64,000 nucleotides of DNA, taken from assembly GCA_022843955.1 (NCBI GenBank), contig JALHMQ010000017.1, forward strand, positions 31,470-95,469, read 5' to 3'. The stretch comes from Burkholderiaceae bacterium (GTDB lineage Bacteria; Pseudomonadota; Gammaproteobacteria; Burkholderiales; Burkholderiaceae_F). A model generated the notes under the pieces. It worked only from the letters and a program-made list of their open reading frames with translations, had not been told where the DNA came from and searched no databases. Below are positions 25,187 through 25,333 of this stretch, one piece after another (position 1 is the stretch's first letter; each line of letters starts with the position of its first letter). A program made the position numbers and the translations under genes.

Positions 25187-25299
25187 AAAAAGACCCCGAG
25201 CCGTGGCTCGGGGTCGCAAATGCCTCTTGATTGAAGGCATCCCGCTCAGGGAGTAGAAGCGGGGGACAACAGAAGATTCAAAGAAAGATCCGCCATCCG
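25187..25299 (-). ncRNA. Candidate trans-acting small RNA in the engB-hemB spacer
   Basis: Read on the minus strand this roughly 113-nt segment shows three stem-loops in a row. The first is CCCGCT/AGCGGG (25241-25263), whose 11-nt loop displays CUCCC, an anti-Shine-Dalgarno. The second is ATGCCT/AGGCAT (25220-25240). The third is a perfect 10-bp stem GACCCCGAGC (25192-25215) followed by five T, an intrinsic terminator. A possible promoter, TTGGGT-16-TAGATT, lies at 25306-25333. No minus-strand protein gene could use this terminator. The C-rich loop resembles Hfq-type regulators in Neisseria and Burkholderia, but homology cannot be tested here. Confidence 0.45.
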
Positions 25300-25305
25300 C
25301 AATGG

Positions 25306-25333
25306 AATCTAATCACCGCGTGTCCGTACCCAA
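25306..25333 (-). promoter_or_regulatory. Possible promoter of the minus-strand small RNA
   Basis: TTGGGT (25328-25333) and TAGATT (25306-25311) are spaced by 16 bp on the minus strand and point away from hemB. Matches are 3 of 6 and 4 of 6, so this supports the RNA only weakly. Confidence 0.25.

Follow-up and report, generated by a model that had tools for sequence, protein, structure and literature searches.

In this work, we have analysed a stretch of 64,000 nucleotides of DNA from a Burkholderiaceae bacterium (hereafter the window), and our results show that it encodes a member of an already catalogued small RNA (sRNA) family, RF02837 or anti-hemB, and not a new kind of RNA. We judge it probable that this sRNA acts in trans, using a C-rich loop to repress mRNAs through their Shine-Dalgarno (SD) sequences, and that it belongs to the betaproteobacterial branch of an engB/polA-linked family that was ancestrally driven by sigma-E and probably includes ErsA and sX13.

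An anti-hemB RNA gene between engB and hemB

The sRNA gene occupies positions 25187..25299 of the minus strand, as placed by the RF02837 match and the fold, with an inferred transcript of ~113 nt. As in anti-hemB, it is an opposite-strand gene between two plus-strand ORFs, which, following the initial annotation, we take to be engB (24440..25093) and hemB (25349..26356, also listed from 25334 with a GTG start). Homologues of engB adjoin the sRNA in relatives, and homologues of hemB do so in most of the compared Betaproteobacteria. Upstream of the sRNA lie hemB itself, on the plus strand, and a long minus-strand ORF (25313-26326) antisense to hemB. The Rfam/Infernal search proposed in the initial annotation returned RF02837 over positions 25186-25266 and over model positions 1-81 of 81, with 55.9 bits against a gathering cut-off of 49.5, and this was the only Rfam match at the curated cut-off in the whole window. 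The RNA had been presented as unannotated, which holds for the window, where no annotation is found, but not for the family, which Rfam already contains. The proposal that it is a C-rich-loop regulator or a conserved relative of one stands in so far as an RF02837 sRNA with an anti-SD loop is present, with the reservation that its promoter is weak and its family was catalogued beforehand. A second RF02837 match in the same genome (L002, 27.6 bits) was rejected, since on inspection by eye it is a terminator that lacks the C-rich loop.

Folding of minus-strand 25187-25299 gave four stems including the terminator, with a minimum free energy of -53.9 kcal/mol and a z score of -5.90 (-5.91 for 25187-25300) that was equalled by 0/200 shuffled sequences; the earlier description of three adjacent minus-strand stem-loops plus a terminator is therefore borne out. 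A 5' stem-loop (25264..25298), whose arms change in a compensatory manner in relatives, abuts stem 2 (25241..25263), whose columns are near-invariant in alignments A1 and A2. The loop of stem 2 exposes, by both fold and sequence, a C-rich, SD-complementary stretch, UACUCCCUG (25247..25255), as had been claimed. Stem 3 (25220..25240), seen in the fold and in the RF02837 alignment, is followed by the intrinsic terminator (25187..25215), in which the terminator scan recovered the perfect 10-bp stem (25215-25192) and the T5 tract (25191-25187) noted earlier; its loop is of 4 nt, and it is the sole terminator-like site within 25000-25500 (shuffles 0.4). All these elements are on the minus strand.

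In Burkholderia cenocepacia J2315, anti-hemB is the RNA ncS04, of 105 nt, with a transcription start site located by dRNA-seq and a 3' end by RACE, and it is given as unchanged in all seven conditions of the qPCR table (PMC5688073). The window sRNA shares with it a full-length model match, the engB-hemB spacer and a similar length (105 vs ~113 nt), in agreement with the minus-strand RNA of about 113 nt that had been predicted, and both would have a sigma-70-type promoter; the window sRNA differs in having an A in place of a C in the loop and a longer 5' part. Within the mainly non-subscription literature, we found no function for anti-hemB, only tables that name the RNA, and no mention of RF02837.

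Distribution and conservation

RF02837 matches at E 0.001 were obtained in 232 of 300 genomes of the order, with 190 over the cut-off; several matches per genome were seen in G234 (six), G251 (six) and G281 (four), which are possible family expansions. The exact core CTCCCTGAGCGG occurs in 169 distinct loci, 143 of which have engB and hemB arranged as in the window, while the remainder have hemB alone (8), engB alone in the window-like position (5), engB upstream on the strand of the sRNA (5) or neither gene (8). Five loci (L074, L078, L079, L118 and L200) have an ORF adjoining the sRNA that by eye resembles a UvrD/Rep helicase, and not engB or hemB. A metagenome-assembled contig labelled Klebsiella pneumoniae (L096) bears an engB-sRNA-hemB locus of the beta type, so its label looks wrong.

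In the family of the window, hemB was obtained in 39/41 genomes, and the sRNA lies between engB and hemB in 11 of the 30 hemB loci examined, the window included; the core is exact in 8 of these and changed, with scores below the cut-off, in 3 (L040, L044 and L046). The other 19 loci lack the core; in 17 of them the spacer does not exceed 101 nt, and the remaining two, for which no engB was found, were inspected over 202 nt. One metagenome-assembled genome (L092) belongs to the genus of the window and shows the same hemB and engB identities as the congener L039.

Relatives were compared, as the initial annotation had suggested, for covariation of the stems and conservation of the loop. The core is exact in 51/56 loci picked by a covariance model, which itself rewards the core letters. 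The window carries an A at 25254, where 120/120 relatives from a pattern scan have a C, these loci having been chosen by the rest of the loop with this position left free; judged by its letters, the loop A is a change that shortens the predicted anti-SD of the window. The columns of stem 2 are invariant or nearly so in A1 and A2, for which the rows were selected on patterns of the loop. Near CCCGC, 118/156 distinct loci have a 5' stem of 5 bp or more vs 33 after shuffling, directly abutting in 106, in a scan that was limited to loops of at most 11 nt, left the row of the window unscored and used shuffles that ignore relatedness. Its arms show compensatory changes, namely AGACG/CGTCT, AGATG/CATCT, AGGTG/CACCT, AGGCG/CGCCT and GGACG/CGTCC. 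Stems 3 and 4 are out of register in the MAFFT alignment A1, and folding it with RNAalifold led nowhere.

Sigma-E-type promoters in relatives of the window sRNA

A candidate sigma-70-type promoter, TTGGGT-16-TAGATT, precedes the window sRNA on the minus strand (25306..25333; TTGGGT at 25333-25328, TAGATT at 25311-25306), and the putative 5' end of the RNA (~25299) was placed from this -10-like TAGATT. The letters of the -10/-35 pair claimed for this position are present, but the promoter would be weak, since TTGGGT equals TTGACA at 3/6 letters and a consensus promoter scan reported none. TA(G/C)ATT is found upstream in 5/8 rows of the family, at varying distance and in a count made without a chance control.

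Most of the compared relatives appear to carry a sigma-E (RpoE)-type promoter, which, within the mainly non-subscription literature, we take to be new. The site is present, for example, in Thiobacillus denitrificans and Methylovorus. The pattern GGAACTT-N15..17-TCTNA, set partly by eye after some 13 upstream sequences, reaches at least 9/11 upstream of 126/166 distinct loci (7.3 after shuffling, 0 on the reverse strand), and in 123 of the 126 motif-bearing loci its -35 falls in the -72 to -60 bins, counted from the core. We repeated the scan with the published sigma-E motif, GGAACTT / GTCAAA (PMC1804206), at a threshold of at least 10/13 and with a spacing of our own setting, and found it in 29/49 loci of Burkholderia in the wide sense (shuffled 0.8), in 62/109 loci of other Betaproteobacteria (3.0) and in 25/34 of the gammaproteobacterial loci described below (0.7); it is found in 0/8 rows of the family of the window (0.13), where only exact-core loci were scored. 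In the genus Burkholderia only 2/12 rows reach 9/11 for the sigma-E pattern, and when the published length of ncS04 is applied to another B. cenocepacia strain, TATGAT falls 5-7 nt before the start, which points to a sigma-70-type promoter in this genus. The family of the window, in the rows scored, lacks the sigma-E promoter too and probably has a sigma-70-type one in its place, as in the genus Burkholderia, while Paraburkholderia may have a hybrid promoter. In the Paraburkholderia-type loci L004, L080 and L083, a near-palindrome, GGTATGATATACC, lies between the sRNA and hemB and could serve both directions.

The genome of the window codes for an RpoE over its cut-off. Among the genomes compared, the sRNA (E 1e-6) is present in 106/130 with rpoE over the cut-off vs 3/20 without it (Fisher p 9e-9, in a test that ignores relatedness and genome reduction). 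A check of the motif upstream of rpoE itself gave a modest result, 6/17 validly placed rows with L230 left out (shuffled 0.8/18), and the strict sigma-E pattern has 2 sites in G036, one of them the sRNA gene, vs 3 in the reversed control. The other strict site of G036 (L243 1501-1528) precedes an ORF that by eye resembles dksA.

Gammaproteobacterial loci and the probable relation to ErsA and sX13

GTDB places Burkholderiales in the Gammaproteobacteria, and for this reason we call gammaproteobacterial the loci found in that class outside the order. In a search of the class, RF02837 matched 36/143 genomes at E 1e-6, of which 2 belong to the order of the window and 34, each of another family, lie outside it, with 5 of the latter over the cut-off. 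Flanking these 34 loci we found engB in 25, polA in 22 (recognized by sequence motifs, one motif sufficing), one or both in 30 and hemB in 0/34; given the short flanks and the contig ends, misses are partly technical. In the locus of the window, hemB sits where polA sits in the gammaproteobacterial loci. A cytochrome c gene lies past engB in 25/45 gammaproteobacterial loci, and at most 2.5 kb from engB in 63/71 engB-bearing betaproteobacterial loci, out of 80 examined from a set of 120. The sigma-E score is at least 9 in 26/34 (shuffled 0.73). R1, a model built from 18 of 23 betaproteobacterial representatives plus the window and containing only 11 base pairs, recovered 33 of these gammaproteobacterial RNAs at E 0.5 and 29 at E 0.001, against 0/18 rpoE control loci, a result that is not independent since the 34 had been picked with RF02837.

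ErsA (Pseudomon-1, RF01719) is described as AlgU-dependent (PMC8395346), and its gene as lying between polA and engB (PMC8575079); like anti-hemB, it is thus engB-linked (PMC8395346, PMC8575079, PMC7565897), and the sigma-E-type motif of most anti-hemB relatives resembles the AlgU control of ErsA. ErsA differs from the window sRNA in its polA-engB position and in being unmatched by the anti-hemB models, whereas the window has no sigma-E site. The ErsA model gave no match in the genome of the window (at E 1e-4 or 0.001) nor in 143 genomes of the class (E 1e-4), and 13 matches in 369 class genomes at E 0.001, one of them over the cut-off. The latter (L310), a genuine ErsA, lies after a polA motif and carries a site that scores 9/11 for sigma-E; it was matched neither by the anti-hemB model (E 1) nor by R1 (E 0.5). 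Of the 12 matches below the threshold, 10 fall on RNAs that the anti-hemB model also matches, in some cases weakly (E up to 0.13); those in L318 and L320 do not. These intermediates match both models.

The sX13 RNA (RF02232) is described in PMC3771888 as always downstream of polA, restricted to the Xanthomonadaceae, constitutive, and using C-rich loops that bind G-rich motifs, in contrast to the Hfq-requiring Spot 42. C-rich loops and the polA locus are thus shared with the anti-hemB family. The sX13 model reported none in 25000-25500 of the window at E 0.1, and gave matches below its cut-off on the same gammaproteobacterial RNAs in L276, L285, L295, L303, L305 and L311; through these, the likeness to the C-rich-loop RNA of Xanthomonas mentioned in the initial annotation, where it was a comparison of mechanism, may be one of kinship. 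In L311 (1089-1827) four tandem sRNA copies lie between polA and engB, each preceded, by eye, by a GGAAC..TCTGA site; all four give anti-hemB-model and sX13-model matches that stay under the respective cut-offs (48.3/50 at best for sX13), and two match the ErsA model as well. The alphaproteobacterial ar14 model (RF02344, cut-off 58.8) also matches weakly on the same RNAs, at L294 1493-1600 (38.6 bits) and L311 1092-1194 (38 bits).

These comparisons suggest that anti-hemB is the betaproteobacterial branch of an older, stress-controlled sRNA family that may include ErsA and sX13, and a common descent of the three, as traced through intermediates, locus and promoter, is likely but indirect, given that genuine ErsA is unmatched by the anti-hemB models. 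The fuller history that we favour, with less confidence than the trans action of the RNA, is that anti-hemB, ErsA and sX13, perhaps with ar14, derive from one engB/polA-linked, sigma-E-driven, C-rich-loop sRNA that the ancestor shared by Beta- and Gammaproteobacteria possessed; that hemB replaced polA in most Betaproteobacteria; and that the genus Burkholderia and the family of the window swapped independently to a housekeeping promoter, the lineage of the window altering its anti-SD loop as well. We found no work linking ErsA with sX13 in the mainly non-subscription literature. The text on sX13 points out that the polA locus is common to Spot 42 and alphaproteobacterial RNAs and leaves open whether polA-locus sRNAs elsewhere act like sX13 (PMC3771888), a question on which the shared locus bears.

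Mode of action

The Rfam name suggests a cis-antisense RNA that controls hemB by overlapping its leader. The gene is indeed on the opposite strand ahead of hemB in 151/169 distinct loci, and 8/11 sRNA-bearing spacers of the family have, ahead of the sRNA gene, a TATCAT/TATGAT on the hemB strand with which the overlap would be complete; in the window this candidate hemB -10, TATCAT (25133..25138, plus strand), would give a hemB leader that spans the sRNA gene, and the motif is absent from the congeners L038 and L039. We nevertheless hold this reading to be improbable, and cis control of hemB to be unlikely as the conserved role, because of the loci without hemB, the promoter positions and the gammaproteobacterial loci. 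No hemB is found upstream in 18/169 loci, some stretches of which end early, including the 8-kb L079, L085 and L118; TATNAT, over 139 loci of all families, is upstream of the sRNA gene at 4 (2.9 after shuffling) and in the sRNA-hemB gap at 54 (14.4), suggesting that in many loci the promoters do not overlap; and the loop and terminator persist in the 34 gammaproteobacterial loci, yet hemB is beside the RNA in none.

It is far less probable still that the segment is merely a terminator with spacer structure and no regulatory RNA, even if a strong terminator alone accounts for part of the fold score and the RNA is absent from 19/30 hemB loci of the family, 17 of them with short spacers; the conserved loop, the covarying 5' stem, the fixed-distance promoter motif of relatives and the mapped transcript of the homologue argue against it. 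We give even less credence to the double-hairpin 'toxic sRNA' RF02278, which matches weakly at the same place and is described as having a CU-rich anti-SD sequence likewise. The score, 22.1 bits, is far under the cut-off of 50, on which ground membership was rejected, and a better candidate exists elsewhere in the same genome. As described, RF02278 (ncS27) and Bordetella S17 share CU-rich anti-SD regions and a terminator with the window sRNA, and differ from it in having two hairpins and other loci. The RF02278 candidate just mentioned (L033 1501-1560, G000:C34:23465-23524) reaches 49.9 bits.

We propose that the window sRNA is a trans-acting anti-hemB RNA whose minus-strand transcript would begin at ~25299 and end with the terminator at 25187, and that, by analogy with other C-rich-loop anti-SD sRNAs, its loop would pair with the SD regions of target mRNAs and block their translation, a mechanism that may need Hfq. 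In relatives with the sigma-E motif, the sRNA would answer envelope stress, while in the family of the window it is probably constitutive because no sigma-E site is present there. The sigma-E motif, together with the locus shared with ErsA, makes a testable role for it, that of an envelope-stress sRNA of Betaproteobacteria. When the perfect complement of the loop was used as a target finder, it occurred at 67 places in 57/150 genomes (reversed pattern 2), without a conserved target. Of 30 such places inspected, 28 lie in an sRNA-like hairpin, 26 of these being the sRNA itself and two (L255 and L256) apparent variants of it; L260 and L271 are not. In L255 and L256 the loop is carried by a hairpin with another stem (CACG..CGTG), and these appear to be paralogues in which the stem has been compensated.
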